NCBI GenBank assembly: GCA_025455865.1
Contig: JALOLS010000014.1
Coordinates: 1-38,863 of the forward strand
DNA from: Thermoleophilia bacterium
GTDB taxonomy: Bacteria; Actinomycetota; Thermoleophilia; Miltoncostaeales; Miltoncostaeaceae
Direction of reading: 5' to 3'
Length of the DNA stretch: 38,863 bases
Shown: positions 15,544 to 23,907 of the stretch, in pieces
Layout of the letters: each line of letters begins with the position of its first letter
Position numbering within the stretch: position 1 is the first letter of the stretch
Position numbers and translations under genes: made by a program
The notes under the pieces: model-generated
What the model was told of the DNA's origin: nothing
Databases searched by the model: none
Seen by the model: the letters and a program-made list of their open reading frames with translations, nothing else

Positions 15544-16650
15544 ATGAGCGGCGCGGTCCCGCATGGATGGCGGCTGATCGCCCGGGAGGGGGCGGCCCGG
15601 GTGGCGCTGCCGCCCGCGCCGGGCGCCGGGCCGGTGTTGCTGACCCGTGACGTGGTCCACGTCCTGCCGGTCGGCCGCGCCGGGACGGTGACGCTGGTGC
15701 GCCAGGACCGCTGGCCCTGCGGCCGGGACGTCACCGAGGCCCCGGCCGGGGGGATCGAGCCGGGCGAGGACCCGATCACGGCGGCGGCGCGCGAGCTGGC
15801 CGAGGAGACCGGCCTTGCCGCCGGCGGGCTCGCCTGGCTCGGGGGCGCCGCCACCGCGCCGGACCTCACCGACGAGGTCGGGCATCTGGTGGTCGCGACG
15901 CAGGCGACCCCCGCCGGCGGCGGCGGGGAGGGATCGGTCGCGGTGGTCCGGGCCGGACCGGGTTCGCCCGCCCGCGACCGGGCGCCGCTGGATGCCCGCA
16001 CCGTGCTGCTCGGCCTGCTCGCCCGGCGCATGGGGCTGATCGCCGCCCCGCCGCTGGCGGCGGGCGAGCCGGCGCCCGGCGGGGGCGGGCGGACCCCGGT
16101 GCGGGTGGGGGCCCGCACCCTGATCGCCGGCGGCCCGGTGCGCGCCGAGCGGGCCGAGGTCACCCGCGACGGCGTGGGGCGGGCCAAGGTCGTCCTGACC
16201 GCCCCGCCGGTCGCGGTGGTCCTCCCGCTCGCCCCGGGCGGCCGCGTGCCGCTCGTCCCCCGGGATCGCCCGCACCTGGGCGGCGTGCTGCTGGAGGCGC
16301 CGTCGGCGCCGATCGGGCCCGGGGAGCGCCCGCCGGACGCCGCCCGTGCGGCCCTCGACGCGGCGGGCATGGCCGGCGGGCGCCCGCAGGCGATGGGCGC
16401 CGTGCTCGTCGCGCCGGGGATGACCGACCGGGTGGCGCACCTCTTCCTGGCCCCCGGGGCCCGGGCCACCCGGCCCCGCGACGTGCGCGACATGCAGGCC
16501 TCGGACCTCGTCGACTGGGCGCTCGCGGCCGCCCGCCACGGGCGGGTCGACCAGCTCACCCTGCTGCTCGCCCTCCTCGCCGAGGCGCGCGCCGCAGGGC
16601 CCGGGCTACCGGGGGACGGCGGGCGGGACCGGGTCCCCCGCCGCCCGTGA
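15544..16650 (+). CDS. Tandem Nudix protein, second domain degenerate
   Basis: A 368-residue protein with two Nudix-like halves. The first contains a complete Nudix box (GGIEPGEDPITAAARELAEE followed by TGL; G69, E75, R83, E84, E87, E88), which binds Mg and hydrolyses nucleoside diphosphate-X compounds; the context around it (APDLTDEVGHLVV) recalls ADP-ribose pyrophosphatases. The second half (about 205-330) keeps the shell (PLVPRDRPHLGGVLLEAPSA, PGMTDRVAHLFLAPGA) but its box reads ERPPDAARAALDAAGM: the REL-x-EE core has lost its glutamates, so it should not be catalytic. The ATG at 15544 begins the family-like region; there is no clear ribosome site. It overlaps the convergent yvcK tail by 45 bases. 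Confidence 0.85.
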   Translation: MSGAVPHGWRLIAREGAARVALPPAPGAGPVLLTRDVVHVLPVGRAGTVTLVRQDRWPCGRDVTEAPAGGIEPGEDPITAAARELAEETGLAAGGLAWLGGAATAPDLTDEVGHLVVATQATPAGGGGEGSVAVVRAGPGSPARDRAPLDARTVLLGLLARRMGLIAAPPLAAGEPAPGGGGRTPVRVGARTLIAGGPVRAERAEVTRDGVGRAKVVLTAPPVAVVLPLAPGGRVPLVPRDRPHLGGVLLEAPSAPIGPGERPPDAARAALDAAGMAGGRPQAMGAVLVAPGMTDRVAHLFLAPGARATRPRDVRDMQASDLVDWALAAARHGRVDQLTLLLALLAEARAAGPGLPGDGGRDRVPRRP

Positions 16651-17580
16651 CCGGGCCGCCTCCCGGGCCAGGGGGACCAGGGCCGCCGTGAGCCGCGCCG
16701 GGGCGTGGCGCACGACCTGGTCGCTCTCGGCCAGGTCGGCGGCGACCACCCGCACCCCGAGCGCCTCGATCGCGGCCCGGTCGACCCGGACCGGGTCCTG
16801 GCCCTGCGCCGCGTAGCGGGCCACCGCGGCGGGGTCGAGCGGGCCGTCGTGCACCAGGGCCACGTCGACCCCGCCCGGTACCGCCTCGAGCACGCGCTCC
16901 AGGTGCGCGGCGGCGTCCAGGCCGTCGGTCTCGCCGGGCTGGGTCATCACGTTGCACACGTAGGCGCGGATGCCCCGCGCCCCGCGCACCGCGGCGGCGA
17001 GGTCGGCCACCGCCAGATGCGGCAGCACGCTGGTGAAGAGGCTGCCCGGGCCGAGCAGCACCAGGTCGGCCTGCTCCACCGCCCGCACCGCGTCGGGGTG
17101 GGCGGCGGGCTCGGGGTCGAGCCACACGCGCCGGCAGGGCCCCACGCCCGCGGCGATCAGCGTCTCGCCGCAGACGCGCTCGCCGTCGGCCCGCTCGGCC
17201 CACAGGCGCACCTGCTGGAGGGTCGAGGGGACCACCCGGCCGTTCACCTTGAGCACGCGGGAGCTCTCCTCGACCGCCTGGTCGAAGCTCCCGGTCACCT
17301 CGGTGAGCGCGGCCAGGAAGAGGTTGCCGAAGGAGTGCCCGGACAGGTCGCCGTCGGCGAAGCGGTGCTGGAAGAGCCGCCCCATGAGCGACTCGTCGTC
17401 GGCCAGGGCGACCAGGCAGTTGCGGATGTCCCCGGGCGGGAGCACCCCGAGCTCGCGGCGCAGGCGACCCGAGGATCCGCCGTCGTCGGCCACCGTGACG
17501 ATCGCGGTCACGTCCGTGCGCTCGCGCTTGAGGGCGCGCAGGACCGACGAGAGGCCGGTGCCCCCGCCCAGCGCGGTCAC
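16606..17580 (-). CDS. yvcK: YvcK/GlmR-type gluconeogenesis and cell-envelope regulator
   Basis: A 324-residue CofD-like protein. In Gram-positives YvcK (GlmR) binds UDP-GlcNAc and links carbon flux to peptidoglycan synthesis. Motifs: VTALGGGTGLSSVLRALK at the N-terminus, VADDGGSSGRLRRELGVLPP, GDIRNCLVALAD, HSFGNLFLAALTEVTG, LVLLGPGSLFTSVLPHL and VCNVMTQPGETDG. The GTG at 17580 is the only usual start at the family N-terminus, but it lacks a ribosome site. An in-frame CTG at 17595, overlapping the rapZ stop as CTGA and preceded by GGAGGGGG, is a plausible alternative that adds five residues. It is the third gene of uvrC-rapZ-yvcK. The usual next gene, whiA, is not present. Confidence 0.94.
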   Translation of the reverse strand: MTALGGGTGLSSVLRALKRERTDVTAIVTVADDGGSSGRLRRELGVLPPGDIRNCLVALADDESLMGRLFQHRFADGDLSGHSFGNLFLAALTEVTGSFDQAVEESSRVLKVNGRVVPSTLQQVRLWAERADGERVCGETLIAAGVGPCRRVWLDPEPAAHPDAVRAVEQADLVLLGPGSLFTSVLPHLAVADLAAAVRGARGIRAYVCNVMTQPGETDGLDAAAHLERVLEAVPGGVDVALVHDGPLDPAAVARYAAQGQDPVRVDRAAIEALGVRVVAADLAESDQVVRHAPARLTAALVPLAREAARSRAAGDPVPPAVPR

Positions 17581-17591
17581 CCTGGGGCGGC

Positions 17592-18485
17592 TCAGCGAGG
17601 CGCCCCCTCCGCGGCGGGGGCCGGGCGGGCGCCGGCCCGGGTGATGTCGCGGTGGCTCACGCTCACCTCGTGCGCGCCGGTGTAGCGGGCGGCCATGCGC
17701 TCGGCCAGGGCCACGCTGCGGTGGCGGCCGCCCGTGCACCCGAAGGCGATGACCAGATGGCGCTTGCCCTCGCCCTCGTAGGCGGGCAGCAGGAAGTCGA
17801 GCAGGCCCTCCAGGCGGGCGATGAACTCGTCGAAGCCCGGTGCCCGGTCCAGGTAGGCGACCACCCCCTCGTCCAGCCCGGTGAGCGGCGCGAGCTCCGG
17901 GACGTAGTGGGGGTTGCGCAGGAAGCGGACGTCGAACATGAGGTCCACCTCCACCGGCACCCCGTACTTGTAGCCGAACGAGGTGAAGGTGACCCGCATC
18001 CGGGGCCGGGCGCCGGGGACGAGCGCCTCGTTCACCGCATCGCGCAGCTGCCAGACGTTCAGGTCGCTGGTGTCGATGACCAGGTCGGCCCGGTCGCGGA
18101 CCTCCGAGAGCGCCTCGCGCTCGCGCTCGATCCCCTGGAGCACCGCCCCGCCCTCGGCCAGGGGGTGACGGCGGCGGGTCTCGCGGAAGCGCGCGAGCAG
18201 CACGTCGTCACGGGCCTCCAGGAACACCACCTTGGGCCGCACGCCCTCGACCTGCCCCAGGCGGGCCACCTCGCGGCTGAGCTCGTCGAACCAGATCCCG
18301 CCGCGCACGTCGCAGACCACCGCGGCCCGTTCGACCTTGCTCCCCTCCAGCGCGAACAGGTCCGAGAGCGCGGGCAGCAGCCGCGGGGGCAGGTTGTCGA
18401 CGCAGAAGTAGCCGGCGTCCTCGAAGACGCCCATCGCCTCGCTCTTGCCCGCCCCCGAGAGGCCGGTGATGACCGTCAGCTCCAC
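17592..18485 (-). CDS. rapZ: RNase adapter / nucleotide-binding protein RapZ
   Basis: A 297-residue P-loop protein. Walker A is ITGLSGAGKS (K14); VFEDAGYFCVDNLPP, FLEARDDVLLARFRETRRRH and IDTSDLNVWQLR follow, and the C-terminal domain holds FTSFGYKYGVP, DVRFLRNPHYVPEL and HLVIAFGCTGGRHRSVALAE, all RapZ/YvcJ signatures. In E. coli RapZ guides RNase E to a small RNA and binds GlcN6P; in Gram-positives the role is less clear. The GTG start at 18485 lies inside the uvrC 3' end (10-base overlap), with GGAGG seven bases upstream. Confidence 0.96.
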   Translation of the reverse strand: MELTVITGLSGAGKSEAMGVFEDAGYFCVDNLPPRLLPALSDLFALEGSKVERAAVVCDVRGGIWFDELSREVARLGQVEGVRPKVVFLEARDDVLLARFRETRRRHPLAEGGAVLQGIEREREALSEVRDRADLVIDTSDLNVWQLRDAVNEALVPGARPRMRVTFTSFGYKYGVPVEVDLMFDVRFLRNPHYVPELAPLTGLDEGVVAYLDRAPGFDEFIARLEGLLDFLLPAYEGEGKRHLVIAFGCTGGRHRSVALAERMAARYTGAHEVSVSHRDITRAGARPAPAAEGAPR

Positions 18486-20422
18486 GCGCCCGCCTCCACG
18501 CCGGCCCGCGCCCCCACGTCGGCGGCCTCGCCCGGCGCCGCGCTCCGGTGCAGATGGTCCCAGATCTCGCGGGCGAGCTTCGGCGGCAGGCCGGGCACCG
18601 CGGCGAGCTCCTCCCGGGTGGCGTCGAGGAAGCGGTCGGCCGAGCCGAAGTGGCGCAGGATCGCCCGCCGCCGGGCGGGCCCGACGCCCGGCAGCTCGTC
18701 CAGGATGCTCGTGGTCATGCCGCGCCCGCGCCGGCCGCGGTGGTGGCGGAGGGCGAAGCGGTGCGCCTCGTCGCGCACCTGCTGGAGCAGGTGCAGGCCG
18801 GCCGAGCCCTCGGGCAGGAGCACCGGGTCGCGCCGCCCGGGCAGGAACACCTCCTCCAGGCGCTTGGCCAGGCCGACCATCGGCACGTCGACCCCGGCCT
18901 CGCGCATGGCCCGCTGCGCCGCCCCGAGCTGGCCCTTGCCCCCGTCGATGACGACCAGGCCCGGGGTCGCCCCGAGCGACGCGTCGCCGTCGTCGGCCGC
19001 CAGGCGGGCGAACCGGCGCCCGAGCGCCTCCTCCATGCGGGCGAAGTCGTCCGGCCCGCCGTCGTGGCGCATGGTGAAGCTGCGGTAGTGCGCACGCGCC
19101 GGCGCGGCCTGCTGGAACACGACCATCGAGGCGACCGCATACGTCGCCCCCAGGTTGGAGATGTCGAAGCACTCGACCCGCAGCGGCGGCGCCGGGAGCC
19201 CGAGGTGGCGCTGCAGGTCGGCGAGCGCCTCCACCCGGCGCGAGCGCGCCCGGGCGTGGCGACGGCGGTCCTGGTCCAGGGCCAGATCGGCGTTGCGGGC
19301 GGCAAGCTCGGCCAGCCGCCGCTTCTCGCCCCGCTCCGGCGCGCGGACCTCCACCCGTGCGCCCCGCCGGCCGGTCAGCACCCGCTCGACCGCCGCCGGC
19401 TCCACCCCGGGCGGCACCACCACCTGCGGCGGGATCGCGATGCCCACCGCGTAGTACTCCAGCGCGAACTGCTCGACCACCGTGGCCAGGTCGGGTGCGC
19501 CGGGCACGTCGAGGAAGAAGGACTGGCGGTCCTGCATGACCCCGTCGCGCACCTGCAGCACCTGGACGTTGGCCGCCTCGCCGTCCTCGGCGATGGCCAC
19601 CCCGACCACATCGAGGCTGCCCATGGAGTCGCTGCGGGCGAGCTGGCGCTCCATGAGGTGGCGCACCGCCTGCAGGCGGTTGCGCAGGACCGCCGCCCGC
19701 TCGAACTCCCGCCGGGCGGCCGCCCCGCGCATCTCGGCCTCGATCTCGCGCTCCAGCCCCCGGTAGCGCCCCGAGAGGAACGCGATGACCTGCTCCACCA
19801 GGACCGTGTACTCGTCCCGGGTGATGTAGCCGACGCAGGGCGCCAGGCAGCGGTGGATGTGGTAGTCCAGGCACGGGATGCCCGACGGCCGGCCGGGCTC
19901 CGGCCCCTCGCACGGCCGGGTCGGGAAGATCTTCCCCATCAGGTTCAGCGTCTCGCGCACCTTGGAGGCACTGGAGAACGGGCCGAAGTACAGGCGGTCG
20001 CGGCGGTGGCGCTCCCGGGTGAAGTAGACCCGGGGGAAGCCCTCGTCCATCGAGATGCCGATGTAGGGATAGCTCTTGTCGTCGCGCAGCCGCACGTTGA
20101 AGGGCGGCTTGTGCATCTTCACGAGGTTGCCCTCGAGGATGAGCGCCTCGGTCTCGGAGTTGACCACCAGCGCCTCGAGCCGGCGGACCCGCGAGACCAT
20201 CTCCACCGTGCGCGGGTGCAGGCCGGCCTTCGGCCCCGGGTCGGCATCGGCCGATCCGCCGTCGGGCCGTACCGGGGCCTGGAAGTAGGACCGCACGCGC
20301 TTGCGCAGCGACTTGGCCTTGCCCACGTAGAGCACCCGGTCGGCGGCGTCGCGGAACAGGTAGACGCCCGGGCCGTCGGGCAGCCCGGCGAGCTGCTCCC
20401 GGAGTGGGGCCGCGCCGCTCAC
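18476..20422 (-). CDS. uvrC: UvrABC excinuclease subunit C
   Basis: A 648-residue nuclease that makes both incisions in nucleotide excision repair. The order is: GIY-YIG domain (GPGVYLFRDAADRVLYVGKA), Cys-rich region (PCLDYHIHRCLAPCVGY), UVR segment around residues 205-240 for UvrB contact, RNase H-like endonuclease domain (VECFDISNLGATYAVASMVV, LVVIDGGKGQLGAAQRA), and tandem helix-hairpin-helix motifs (ILDELPGVGPARRRAILRHF, ELAAVPGLPPKLAREIW). The length is normal. The GTG start follows a TATACT box by seven bases with no ribosome site, suggesting a leaderless mRNA. It is the first gene of uvrC-rapZ-yvcK. Confidence 0.97.
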   Translation of the reverse strand: MSGAAPLREQLAGLPDGPGVYLFRDAADRVLYVGKAKSLRKRVRSYFQAPVRPDGGSADADPGPKAGLHPRTVEMVSRVRRLEALVVNSETEALILEGNLVKMHKPPFNVRLRDDKSYPYIGISMDEGFPRVYFTRERHRRDRLYFGPFSSASKVRETLNLMGKIFPTRPCEGPEPGRPSGIPCLDYHIHRCLAPCVGYITRDEYTVLVEQVIAFLSGRYRGLEREIEAEMRGAAARREFERAAVLRNRLQAVRHLMERQLARSDSMGSLDVVGVAIAEDGEAANVQVLQVRDGVMQDRQSFFLDVPGAPDLATVVEQFALEYYAVGIAIPPQVVVPPGVEPAAVERVLTGRRGARVEVRAPERGEKRRLAELAARNADLALDQDRRRHARARSRRVEALADLQRHLGLPAPPLRVECFDISNLGATYAVASMVVFQQAAPARAHYRSFTMRHDGGPDDFARMEEALGRRFARLAADDGDASLGATPGLVVIDGGKGQLGAAQRAMREAGVDVPMVGLAKRLEEVFLPGRRDPVLLPEGSAGLHLLQQVRDEAHRFALRHHRGRRGRGMTTSILDELPGVGPARRRAILRHFGSADRFLDATREELAAVPGLPPKLAREIWDHLHRSAAPGEAADVGARAGVEAGAWS

Positions 20423-20461: not shown

Positions 20462-21700
20462 TCACGTGAGCCCCTCCCCCACCCGCACGAGCACGACGCC
20501 GGCCGCACCCGGCGCGCCGGCATCGCCGGCCCACGCCGTCACCCGGGCAACGTAGGCCCGGGTCTCGGGGAAGGGCGGCACCCCGCCGTGGCGCCGCACC
20601 GCCCCGGGGCCTGCGTTGTAGGCGGCCAGGGCGAGCTCGACGCTGCCGAACGCGCGCAGGTGCCCGGCCAGCAGGCGCGCGGCGGCGGGCACGGCCTGGC
20701 CCGGGTCGAACGGGTCGCGCACCCCCAGGCCGGCCGCGGTCGCGGGCATGAGCTGGGCGATGCCCTGCGCGCCGGCGTGGCTCACCACCCCGGGGTCGAA
20801 GCCCGACTCGGCCCGCAGGAGCGCGGCGAGCAGCCCGGGCGCGATGCCCGCCCCCGCCGCGGCGTGGCCGACCAGGTCCCGGTAGGCCGTGGGCACCCAC
20901 GCCGGCACCGCCGCGGCGCCGGCCGCCGGCCCCACGGCCGCCAGCCCCCGCGGCCGGCGCCGCATGGGCCAGTCGCGGGCGAGGACCGACCCCGTGCGGA
21001 CCACCGCCCCGGTGTAGGGCGCCTCGACGATGCGCCCGCCGCCGACGTACATCGCCACGTGGCCGGCGTGGGGGAAGAGCAGGTCGCCGGGCCGGAGCGC
21101 GGAGTCCGGGAGGTGCGAGATGTCCTCCATCAGGGCGAGCTGGTCCCAGGTCGTGCGGCCGATCGGGACCCCGGCGCTCCGCCACGCCTCCGACGTGAGG
21201 CCCGAGCAGTCGTAGCCCGCGTCGGTGGTCCCGCCCCACCGGTAGGGGATCCCGAGCTTGGAGAGGGCCCAGGCCGCCGCCCGCGCCCCGGCCCCGCCGC
21301 CGCCCACGCCCGGCGCGGCCCGGGCCACGGCATGCACCCGCAGCCCGAGCGGCGCCGAGCGGGCCACCCGCACCTCGACCGCCCCGGGCGCCGCGCCGCG
21401 GCCCACCACCCGGATCGACACCAGCTCGGCCCCCGCGCCCCGGGCCGCCGGAGCGGCCGCGGCGGCCAGGTCGGCCGCGGCGGGGCCGGGTGGGGGCGCC
21501 CCGCCGGCGAGCAGGGGCAGCGTGCGCACCAGGTGCCGGGCCGCCGACACCGCGGCCAGGTCGGCCGCCGCCTGCGCGGCGGACCGCGCGAGGAGCACCG
21601 CCCCCATCGCCCCGGCGGCCAGCCCCGCGAGCGCGACGAGCGCCCCCACCGCGAGCACGAGCGGCAGGGACTGCCCGGACTGCCCCCGGCGCGCCCTCAC
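20462..21700 (-). CDS. TadE/TadG-like pseudopilin fused to NlpC/P60 and lytic transglycosylase domains
   Basis: A 412-residue protein of three parts. Residues 1-60 are a TadE/G-like leader: VRARRGQSGQSLPLV, a hydrophobic helix and RSAAQAAADLAAVSAARHL, closely resembling actinobacterial Rv3655c-like pseudopilins. Residues 140-245 are an NlpC/P60 peptidase: YRWGGTTDAGYDCSGL (C165), PGDLLFPHAGHVAMYVGGG (H214) and a following E226. Residues 270-392 are a soluble lytic transglycosylase: LLAALLRAESGFDP (E298), GAQGIAQLMPATA, AAYNAGPGAV. So one polypeptide carries a membrane helix, a peptide-stem hydrolase and a glycan-cutting enzyme, probably facing the wall. The GTG overlaps the upstream pseudopilin stop (GTGA). 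The fifth-position Glu of TadE leaders is missing (Ser). Confidence 0.85.
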   Translation of the reverse strand: MRARRGQSGQSLPLVLAVGALVALAGLAAGAMGAVLLARSAAQAAADLAAVSAARHLVRTLPLLAGGAPPPGPAAADLAAAAAPAARGAGAELVSIRVVGRGAAPGAVEVRVARSAPLGLRVHAVARAAPGVGGGGAGARAAAWALSKLGIPYRWGGTTDAGYDCSGLTSEAWRSAGVPIGRTTWDQLALMEDISHLPDSALRPGDLLFPHAGHVAMYVGGGRIVEAPYTGAVVRTGSVLARDWPMRRRPRGLAAVGPAAGAAAVPAWVPTAYRDLVGHAAAGAGIAPGLLAALLRAESGFDPGVVSHAGAQGIAQLMPATAAGLGVRDPFDPGQAVPAAARLLAGHLRAFGSVELALAAYNAGPGAVRRHGGVPPFPETRAYVARVTAWAGDAGAPGAAGVVLVRVGEGLT

Positions 21701-21957
21701 GGGACCACCACCGCGCGGGCCGGGACCACGAGGCGCGGCCCGAGACCGGGGAGGAGCCCGGGCAGCGTCACCTGCGCCCGGACGGTGAGCGCCCGGCCGG
21801 CCGGGCCGGTGGCGGCGAGCGCGTCGGCCCGGGCGCGGTCCTGGGCCCGGCCGGCGGCGGCGAGCAGGGCGATGAGCTGCCAGGCCAGGAGCACCGCGGC
21901 GACCAGCACCGGGACGAGGGCCAGGAGCTCGACGCCCGCCTGCCCGCGCCGGCTCAC
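21697..21957 (-). CDS. Small TadE-like pseudopilin
   Basis: An 86-residue protein with a TadE-type N-terminus: SRRGQAGVELLALVPVLVAA and continuing hydrophobic residues, where GQ-x-x-x-E resembles the cleavage and +5 Glu region of type IV/Tad prepilins. A short polar tail follows with two beta-like segments (LTVRAQVTLPG, LGPRLVVPARAVVV). It lies between two related genes and overlaps both by four bases (GTGA), so the three should be made together. A prepilin peptidase and the TadA ATPase are not in the window. Confidence 0.78.
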   Translation of the reverse strand: MSRRGQAGVELLALVPVLVAAVLLAWQLIALLAAAGRAQDRARADALAATGPAGRALTVRAQVTLPGLLPGLGPRLVVPARAVVVP

Positions 21958-22313
21958 CGCCCGGCCCCCGCCGCGGCCCGGACCTCGCCGGCGAGCGGGA
22001 GGCCCGGGACCAGGCCGGGCACCGCCAGGCGAACGCGCACGCCACCGTCGGCGTCCACCGCCACGTCGCGCACCCGCCCGGCCCAGCCGCCGGGGAGCAC
22101 CGCGCGCGCGGCGTGCCCCGCGGGGGCGCCGACCTCGGCCGCCCGCGCCCCGGCCCGGGCCGCCTCGCCGGCGAGCTGCCAGGCCGCGATCCAGGCGACG
22201 GCCTGCCACCCGGCCACGAGGAGCAGCGCGAGCGCCGGCAGCAGGGCCACCAGCTCGACGGCGGACTGGCCGCGCTGGGCCGTCAGGCGGGGTGGGGATG
22301 CGGCGGGATCCAC
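21954..22313 (-). CDS. TadE-like pseudopilin, first gene of the pilin-hydrolase operon
   Basis: A 119-residue protein: a 13-residue leader, then QRGQSAVELVALLPALALLL and the rest of a helix, a helical stretch (QLAGEAARAGARAAEVGAPA) and a C-terminal beta-rich part (RVRDVAVDADGGVRVRLAVP). This is the TadE layout. The GTG at 22313 follows a TAGGGT box by seven bases and lacks a ribosome site, so the operon mRNA is probably leaderless. The two later genes each restart on a GTGA overlap. Confidence 0.8.
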   Translation of the reverse strand: MDPAASPPRLTAQRGQSAVELVALLPALALLLVAGWQAVAWIAAWQLAGEAARAGARAAEVGAPAGHAARAVLPGGWAGRVRDVAVDADGGVRVRLAVPGLVPGLPLAGEVRAAAGAGR

Positions 22314-22415: not shown

Positions 22416-23015
22416 TCAGCCCCCGGCACCGCCCTTCGGCCGCCACTGGTTGGCCCGCTCACCCCGGGCGGCGAGCCGCGCGGTCTCCTCGACCCGCGCG
22501 GCGCGGGTCCCGGCCCGCCGGGCCTGCACGATCCACTCCAGGATCCCCCGCCGGGCCGAGCGCGGGAAGGCGTCCCACCGCTCCCGCGATCCCGGGTGGC
22601 GCGCGAAGGCCGCCGCGAGGTCGTCGGGCACCACGCCGTCCTCCACCGCGTCGAGCATGGACCACGAGCCGTCGGCCCGGGCGCGCTCGACGACCCGGAG
22701 CCCTGCCTCGGCCATGCGGCCCTCACGCTCCAGGCGGGCGATGCGCTCCTTGTTGGGCCGCGACCACCCGCTGCCGGCGGCGCGCGGGGCGAACCAGAGC
22801 ATCGTGCGCTCATCGTCCAGGGCACGCGACCGGGAGTCGACCCACCCGACGCGGAGCGCCTCGGTCACCGCCTCCTCGTACCCGAACGCCTGGCGGCCGG
22901 TAGCCTTCTTGAAGCTGACCAGCCACACCCCCCGCCCACGGTCATGGTGGCGCGCGAGCCACTCGCCCCACGCCTCCACCGATGCCGGGTGGACCTGATC
23001 GTCTATCCCAGCCAC
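22416..23015 (-). CDS. YdeI/OmpD-associated family protein
   Basis: A 199-residue soluble protein. The segments EAWGEWLARHHDRGRGVWLV, then SFKKATGR, FGYEEAVTEALRVGWVDSRS, MLWFAPRAAGSGWSRPNKER, and the C-terminal DDLAAAFARHPGSRERWDAF and RRGILEWIVQARRAGTRAAR with RVEETARLAA are characteristic of the YdeI (bacteriocin-protection) family. Its biochemical role is unknown. The GTG at 23015 overlaps the upstream cupin gene by 13 bases, which points to one transcript with the cupin gene and the small membrane-protein gene above it. Confidence 0.88.
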   Translation of the reverse strand: MAGIDDQVHPASVEAWGEWLARHHDRGRGVWLVSFKKATGRQAFGYEEAVTEALRVGWVDSRSRALDDERTMLWFAPRAAGSGWSRPNKERIARLEREGRMAEAGLRVVERARADGSWSMLDAVEDGVVPDDLAAAFARHPGSRERWDAFPRSARRGILEWIVQARRAGTRAARVEETARLAARGERANQWRPKGGAGG

Positions 23016-23551
23016 TCCGGCCGGTAGCGCGTGGGGCGGCGGCGGGCGAGGCCCGCGTAGGCGTCCTCGGGGCGGACGGTCGCCTCGGTCACCCCCGCCC
23101 CGTGGCGGAGGGCGGCCTCGTCCACCGTGTAGCCGCCCCAGTCCGGGCCGCCGACGGACCGGTCGCGCACGCCCACCGCGACCACCACGCAGGGCCCCTC
23201 GCCGGCGCCGACGATGACGTGCTCGGTGCCGGGCGGGCAGTGGACCAGGTCCCAGGGCCCGAGCGGGCGCTCCTGCCCCTCCACGATGAGCAGCGCCGCG
23301 CCCGAGAGCACCAGGAAGTCCTCCTGGTCGGCCTCCCAGTGGTACATCGCCATCGGCTGGCCGGGGCCGAGCACGACCACGTGGATCCCGAGCTGCGTGA
23401 ACTCGGTCTCGCCCTCCAGGTCGCTCACCGCCGCCCGGCCCTCGGCGTGGTACCAGCGGGCGTCCCGGGCGTTCAGCACGAACCAGCCCTCCCCCGCGGG
23501 GACCAGTCCCTCGGCGGTCGGCTCGAGCGGCGCCTCGGGCACGTCGCTCAC
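23003..23551 (-). CDS. Cupin-domain protein
   Basis: A 182-residue protein with a single conserved beta-barrel: LGPGQPMAMYHWEADQEDFL (cupin motif 1) and PLGPWDLVHCPPGTEHVIVG (motif 2, with His). The metal-binding pattern is partly altered: the first motif reads H-x-E where H-x-H is usual. The N-terminus contains WFVLNARDARWYH; the C-terminus RRRPTRYRPEWLG is seen in similar actinobacterial cupins. The GTG overlaps the upstream membrane-protein stop (GTGA). The substrate is unknown; a metal-dependent isomerase/oxygenase or a binding role are both possible. Confidence 0.85.
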   Translation of the reverse strand: MSDVPEAPLEPTAEGLVPAGEGWFVLNARDARWYHAEGRAAVSDLEGETEFTQLGIHVVVLGPGQPMAMYHWEADQEDFLVLSGAALLIVEGQERPLGPWDLVHCPPGTEHVIVGAGEGPCVVVAVGVRDRSVGGPDWGGYTVDEAALRHGAGVTEATVRPEDAYAGLARRRPTRYRPEWLG

Positions 23552-23907
23552 GGGAACCTGCGGCTCTCGCGCACGACCCAGATGATCACCAGCACCAGCG
23601 CGGCGAGCAGGGCGAAGTACCCCAGGGGGGTGAGGCGGTCGGCCAGGAGCGGCCACCCGGCGATGAGCAGGAACGCGATGGCGAGCCCGCACACGATGAT
23701 GGTGATCCGCTGCCAGGGCTTGAGCACCAGCCAGGCCAGGCGGTTCTGCCGGAAGTAGGTGTAGCCGAAGCCGATCAGCGCGGCCACGAAGAGCACGGTG
23801 ATGATCTGGCTGGCGCCGATGGCGATGGCGTCGAAGCCGCGCTGCCAGACCACCCCGAGGGCGGCGATCGCCGCGATGATGATCCCGTTGCGGATACCGG
23901 TCTGCAT
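23548..23907 (-). CDS. Small four-helix membrane protein
   Basis: A 119-residue protein that is almost all membrane: NGIIIAAIAALGVVWQRGF, ITVLFVAALIGFGYTYF, ITIIVCGLAIAFLLIAGW and YFALLAALVLVIIWVV, ending in RESRRFP. I do not recognise a family. The frame is open upstream, but the ATG at 23907 starts directly before the first helix; a CATCCT box lies eight bases upstream. It is first in a three-gene set with the cupin and the YdeI-like gene. Confidence 0.72.
   Translation of the reverse strand: MQTGIRNGIIIAAIAALGVVWQRGFDAIAIGASQIITVLFVAALIGFGYTYFRQNRLAWLVLKPWQRITIIVCGLAIAFLLIAGWPLLADRLTPLGYFALLAALVLVIIWVVRESRRFP

Follow-up and report, generated by a model that had tools for sequence, protein, structure and literature searches.

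A conserved operon of Tad-type minor pilins whose last gene carries two predicted peptidoglycan-cutting domains: a candidate wall-opening tip for the Tad pilus

The window, that is, the whole stretch of 38,863 nucleotides that was analysed, corresponds to contig C166 (38.9 kb) in an assembly of 3.16 Mb and 186 contigs. ORF calls and their translations place a three-gene operon on its minus strand, at positions 20462-22313. Adjacent ORFs share four bases (GTGA) at each junction, TadE1/TadE2 and TadE2/PSN, which confirms the overlaps described in the original prediction; PSN is the name used here for the 412-residue pilin - NlpC/P60 - SLT protein. The analysis draws on sequence and prediction throughout, and the assemblies compared are mostly fragmented. 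The features of the locus are the following:

21954-22313, minus strand: TadE1, a TadE-like minor pilin of 119 residues (PF07811 above the cut-off)
21697-21957, minus strand: TadE2, a TadE/TadF-like minor pilin of 86 residues (translation; overlaps with both neighbours; conserved second operon gene in relatives)
20462-21700, minus strand: PSN, 412 residues, third gene of the operon (Pfam; alignment; same-locus orthologues in relatives)
21674-21700, minus strand: putative prepilin leader of PSN, VRARRGQSG, with cleavage predicted after G9 (nearly invariant alignment column)
21305-21700, minus strand: pilin-like module of PSN, residues 1-132 (PF13400; AlphaFold model)
20981-21253, minus strand: NlpC/P60 domain of PSN, residues 150-240 (Pfam; alignment)
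20582-20872, minus strand: SLT lytic transglycosylase domain of PSN, residues 277-373 (PF01464; structure match to the Slt family; conserved in relatives)
23548-23907, minus strand: small membrane protein of 119 residues, conserved upstream of the operon in families f1, f5 and f7
18476-20422, minus strand: uvrC, conserved downstream neighbour (context, not a functional part)
17592-18485: rapZ, after uvrC (neighbourhood context)
16606-17580: yvcK, after rapZ (neighbourhood context)

All three genes had been called TadE/TadG-like, an assignment that stands for TadE1 (PF07811, 29.6 bits against a cut-off of 22.9) and for PSN, both above the Pfam cut-off, and that is weaker for TadE2, which has no Pfam match above the cut-off and keeps the GQAGVE leader. 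The leaders of the two small pilins read ...TAQRG/QSAVELVALLP (TadE1) and VSRRG/QAGVELLALVP (TadE2), each with Glu at +5. The small membrane protein has no significant Pfam match, and is retained upstream of the operon in f1, f5 and f7 even where the remaining neighbourhood differs. Just upstream of the operon in the window there is also an OmdA ('bacteriocin-protection, YdeI') gene (22416-23015), which in genome G025 lies inside the operon, between TadE2 and PSN (L041:8592-9149).

The pseudopilin-type leader and helix that had been ascribed to PSN are both present, but this description was too small, as the N-terminal region is predicted to form a whole conserved alpha-plus-three-strand module (residues about 9-130) and not an anchor alone. 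The AlphaFold model predicts, within residues 1-132 (mean pLDDT 89.7 for this module), a long helix (11-63), a second helix (73-88) and three strands (92-128). Pfam places a Tad domain (PF13400) at residues 9-55 with 22.5 bits, marginal against the cut-off of 22.3, and the same domain is above the cut-off in many PSN relatives and below it in several. In CpaL, the Caulobacter counterpart of TadG, a pilin module with a long helix and three strands is combined with a vWA domain (PMC12607857); the predicted PSN module has the same plan, followed by a C-terminal functional domain, with no significant Foldseek match to a pilin in the PDB (best pilin match E 1.7). Nor does the leader prove to be an ordinary signal anchor, the reading that would have spoken against the original proposal. 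Judged from these predicted features, the N-terminus of PSN is a TadG-type minor-pilin module.

Two wall-hydrolase domains follow in the window protein, NLPC_P60 (PF00877, 63.1 bits) and SLT (PF01464, 80.3 bits), and the catalytic residues that had been named, C165 and H214 in the former and E298 in the latter, are present. We take E226, by analogy with RipA, to occupy the third triad position, and the Cys-His-polar triad of NlpC/P60 (C40) peptidases is found in C165, H214 and E226. The SLT domain has the catalytic Glu of its family, Slt-family structures head the fold search, and Foldseek of the full PSN model leads to lytic transglycosylases. The AlphaFold model has low pLDDT over the NlpC/P60 part, as may be expected since the relatives carry another domain, VanY, at this place. 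The domains and active-site residues suggest that PSN could cut both the glycan and the peptide parts of the wall.

The fusion of pilin, NlpC/P60 and SLT is thus real in the window, but its NlpC/P60 part is exceptional: all 28 full-length relatives aligned have a VanY (M15) peptidase-type middle segment instead. Pfam found VanY in every PSN relative submitted, and the motifs of this family, S-x-H...T-E-L-D and W-E-x-W-H, can be followed along the alignment. Since, in a tree built from the pilin and SLT modules that these proteins share, the window protein is nested inside f1 among VanY-bearing proteins (enclosing group of 15, support 90/87), NlpC/P60 is most readily explained as having replaced VanY in a derived state, seen in the window genome only. 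The best match to this NlpC/P60 domain among the sequences compared is a flagellar-type protein of G053 (44%); such a protein was considered as the source of the domain, and a match of 44% is too low for this claim.

Across family f1 the operon is kept between thrS and uvrC, the series of genes being thrS - small membrane protein - TadE1 - TadE2 - PSN - uvrC - rapZ - yvcK - gap - pgk - tpi; some genomes have insertions in this series. The operon is also found in two sister families, f5 and f7. There the trio again comes after the small membrane protein, TadE2 and PSN are usually separated by an additional gene that has no Pfam match (L078:8286-8921; L081:5140-5898; L056:12021-12815), and uvrC is not adjacent to the operon in f5 and in part of f7. 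A family profile searched against 396 genomes across the phylum gave near-full-length PSN matches in f1, f5 and f7, all of one class, and outside these families only its SLT part was matched; the architecture is uncommon and has a relation to Tad. About 30 relatives share the gene order together with the pilin and SLT modules, so that the operon is not a product of chance. The SLT domain seems not always to be needed, since genus g9 (G008, G017) has lost it, G060 has a degenerate copy and the domain of G035 has no catalytic Glu. An apparent decay of PSN to a lone SLT domain in G004 was traced to a contig break, with TadE1, TadE2 and the start of PSN on another contig. In G055 TadE2 and PSN are separated by two further genes of the operon (L056:9770-13596); the product of one is an M23 wall peptidase that also has a FlgD-type Ig domain (FlgD_ig), a third wall-cutting enzyme at this locus.

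A link to Tad pili had been guessed, and tad genes were sought elsewhere in the genome. A separate Tad core is present on contig 172, with CpaB (SAF domain), a TadZ-like protein, TadA, TadB, TadC and a small Flp-like pilin, the Flp and TadZ assignments being based on position and sequence and not on Pfam matches above the cut-off; neither TadE nor TadG is encoded in this cluster. TadE1 is the sole TadE match above the cut-off in the whole genome, PSN is the sole gene with a Tad domain above the cut-off, and the genome also encodes a prepilin peptidase. Several genomes keep a response regulator next to the Tad core (L067:12827-13558; L069:13060-13794), in some together with a histidine kinase (e.g., G016 and G025), which suggests two-component control of the pilus.

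TadE and PSN lie apart from tadA in the operon-bearing families f1, f5 and f7, and most operon-bearing genomes have no other TadE or TadG above the cut-off. In families f3, f4 and f8, which have no PSN, TadE and TadG mostly lie no more than a few kilobases from TadA in the TadA-bearing genomes; direct reading of G049 and G063 gave the order Flp-TadE-TadG-CpaB-TadZ-TadA. Of 81 genomes, 43 have the operon or a recognisable portion of it (sometimes only a piece at a contig end), and 41 of these have evidence of a Tad locus (33 with a TadA match, 8 more with Tad-locus genes at the ends of contigs); neither operon nor Tad is found in 26 genomes, and 12 have Tad without the operon, 11 of these from f3, f4 and f8. 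The co-occurrence gives a Fisher p of 2e-5 with TadA matches only and of 6e-10 with contig-end fragments included, values which overstate the evidence given shared ancestry. Both operon and Tad are absent from genus g2 and from families f2 and f6. G027 and G029 (94-95% complete) have the operon and yielded no Tad gene, the Tad-flanking markers being missing as well. TadA appeared to be lost in many operon genomes, an explanation rejected for G004, G031, G035, G037, G040, G016 and G007, in which contigs break in or beside the Tad cluster, so that its absence there does not count against a Tad link; for G007 and G031 the Tad-locus evidence consists of flanking genes only. Contig ends in or beside the Tad cluster are found in many assemblies (L113-L118, L121, L123), where they mimic gene loss in presence/absence tables. 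A tie between the operon and Tad pili is supported at the level of gene content, because the core encoded elsewhere lacks TadE and TadG and because the operon tracks the presence of Tad loci.

The leaders add a further distinction within the trio. The +5 residue of PSN is L and not E, and E is absent from this position in all 31 PSN leaders compared; of the 42 motif matches in small pilins, 39 have it. A filament has been proposed to begin with a minor pilin that lacks Glu5, with a hydrophobic residue at +5, that is larger than its partners and that is encoded by the last gene of the cluster (PMC5207764), and PSN has no Glu at +5, is larger than TadE1 and TadE2 and is the 3'-most gene. Models of CpaL place it, together with two small pilins, at the tip of the pilus (PMC12607857; PMC13170226), and a backbone role at the tip, with a modular C-terminus, has been described for TadG-type proteins (PMC12075869). 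By this signature of a first subunit, PSN may be located at the tip as well.

We regard it as moderately probable that PSN is a TadG/CpaL-type tip minor pilin that, with TadE1 and TadE2 as partners, opens the cell's own wall to let the Tad pilus through; here the processing of the leaders, the position at the tip, the activity of the enzymes and the own wall as their target are all inferred. The three pilins would be processed by the prepilin peptidase and would form a priming or tip complex on the Tad core encoded at contig 172. As the leading subunit of the filament, PSN would be the first to reach the peptidoglycan. There the glycan strands would be cleaved by SLT and the stem peptides by the peptidase domain (NlpC/P60 in the window, VanY in the relatives), and the Flp filament could then extend through the local hole. 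The M23 peptidase beside PSN in G055, a further wall enzyme in the operon, was counted in favour of wall opening, and the separation of the operon from the tad core and the marginal PF13400 match count against a Tad tip, as do the lack of a significant Foldseek match to pilins, the operon in G027 and G029 where no Tad gene was found, and the loss or degeneration of SLT in some relatives. The wider proposition, that the Tad tip subunit is a two-edged wall cutter, a drill bit with an exchangeable peptidase module and the first peptidoglycan hydrolase dedicated to the Tad pilus, seems to us to have about an even chance of being correct. The original interpretation as a whole is partly supported.

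PSN could also stand at the Tad tip and direct its enzymes at other bacteria, as a contact weapon like the Kil pili of Myxococcus, given that TadG-type tips have modular C-terminal domains and that Tad pili bearing such tips kill prey (PMC12075869). The single exchange of the peptidase domain and the OmdA gene by the operon in the window, and inside it in G025, would suit such a role, but the SLT and VanY modules are conserved over three families and not diversified, no consistent immunity gene adjoins PSN, and OmdA is found in only some relatives and at differing positions, so that we consider a weapon unlikely.

Homologues of RapZ and YvcK influence the supply of cell-wall precursors in other bacteria. 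With the operon adjoining uvrC-rapZ-yvcK in f1, this link could point to a membrane-anchored enzyme that remodels the wall for growth or division, with a borrowed pilin-like N-terminus and no relation to Tad, as could the two operon-bearing genomes in which no Tad gene was found. We find this improbable, since the operon co-occurs with Tad, both are absent in g2, f2 and f6, two TadE genes are its constant company, most such genomes have no further TadE or TadG above the cut-off, and the operon lies away from uvrC in f5 and part of f7.

Membership of the trio in the flagellum or in a type IVa (PilB/PilC) system is very unlikely: the genome does have PilB/PilC matches, a PilM/PilN-like cluster with the prepilin peptidase and a flagellar cluster with an SLT protein, but many g10 genomes have the trio and one T2SSE match only, which is TadA, hence no PilB, no flagellar-type SLT protein is listed for g10, the g2 members except G001 have PilB and no trio, and the TadE and Tad domains are Tad-type families. 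Equally remote is an assembly artefact fusing two genes as the origin of the NlpC/P60 domain in the window genome: this form does occur in one genome only, with a fragmented assembly and no congener to compare, but the frame is continuous through both joints, third-position GC is equal in all three PSN modules (0.97-1.0), the flanking modules are family-typical and the gene order is conserved on the contig at both sides.

If PSN is a wall-opening Tad tip, it would address the open question of the route by which Tad pili pass through the peptidoglycan. No peptidoglycan hydrolase or lytic transglycosylase was reported with the Tad pilus, unlike with other appendages, as of 2025 (PMC12307814). 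Our literature search, which covered open-access papers, likewise found no hydrolase linked to Tad pili. PSN offers a named gene and residues for testing (C165, H214 and E298, and the VanY active site in relatives), and it suggests that modular Tad tips can carry enzymes, with a peptidase module that may be swapped in place.

Among known systems, the mycobacterial Rv3654c/Rv3655c pair, located in a tad locus, are TadE-like actinobacterial minor pilins as are TadE1 and TadE2, and TadE1 gives a sub-threshold match to the Rv3655c model; we know of no hydrolase associated with this pair. The GspK tip pseudopilins of type II secretion, another secretion system, have an inserted helical domain and no hydrolases, unlike PSN. 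The SLT proteins encoded between fliJ and fliK in flagellar loci of the same phylum share the SLT family with PSN and, by gene context, would have a role with an envelope machine, but these SLT and SLT/NlpC-P60 proteins have no pilin module and are encoded in flagellar operons. In these flagellar proteins SLT is fused to NlpC/P60 either way (NlpC-SLT in L002 and SLT-NlpC in G053; L002:5386-6465; L079:6814-7788; L071:7761-8480). With SLT or SLT plus NlpC/P60 proteins encoded in flagellar operons, it is not uncommon in this phylum for a cell-surface machine to have a wall cutter of its own, a point in favour of the wall-opening reading of PSN.

The Kil tip pilins of Myxococcus (KilL/M/N) are, like the complex proposed for the PSN trio, Tad-type minor-pilin tip complexes with a large modular subunit (PMC12075869), but they act in prey killing and exist in four versions, whereas PSN has one conserved version with defined hydrolase domains. 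TadG/CpaL of Caulobacter, Aggregatibacter and Pseudomonas shares with PSN a leader and a pilin-like module, both predicted in PSN, and a large C-terminal functional domain (PMC12607857, PMC13170226, PMC12075869), and both are accompanied by two smaller TadE/TadF-type pilins. TadG/CpaL has been modelled at the pilus tip, where PSN would also lie, its C-terminus is a vWA domain and not a wall peptidase with a lytic transglycosylase, and, unlike TadG/CpaL, PSN is encoded away from the tad core. Since the C-terminal vWA domain is absent and predicted hydrolase domains are found instead, PSN is, as judged from its domain composition, a variant of the TadG-type minor pilin and not a standard TadG.
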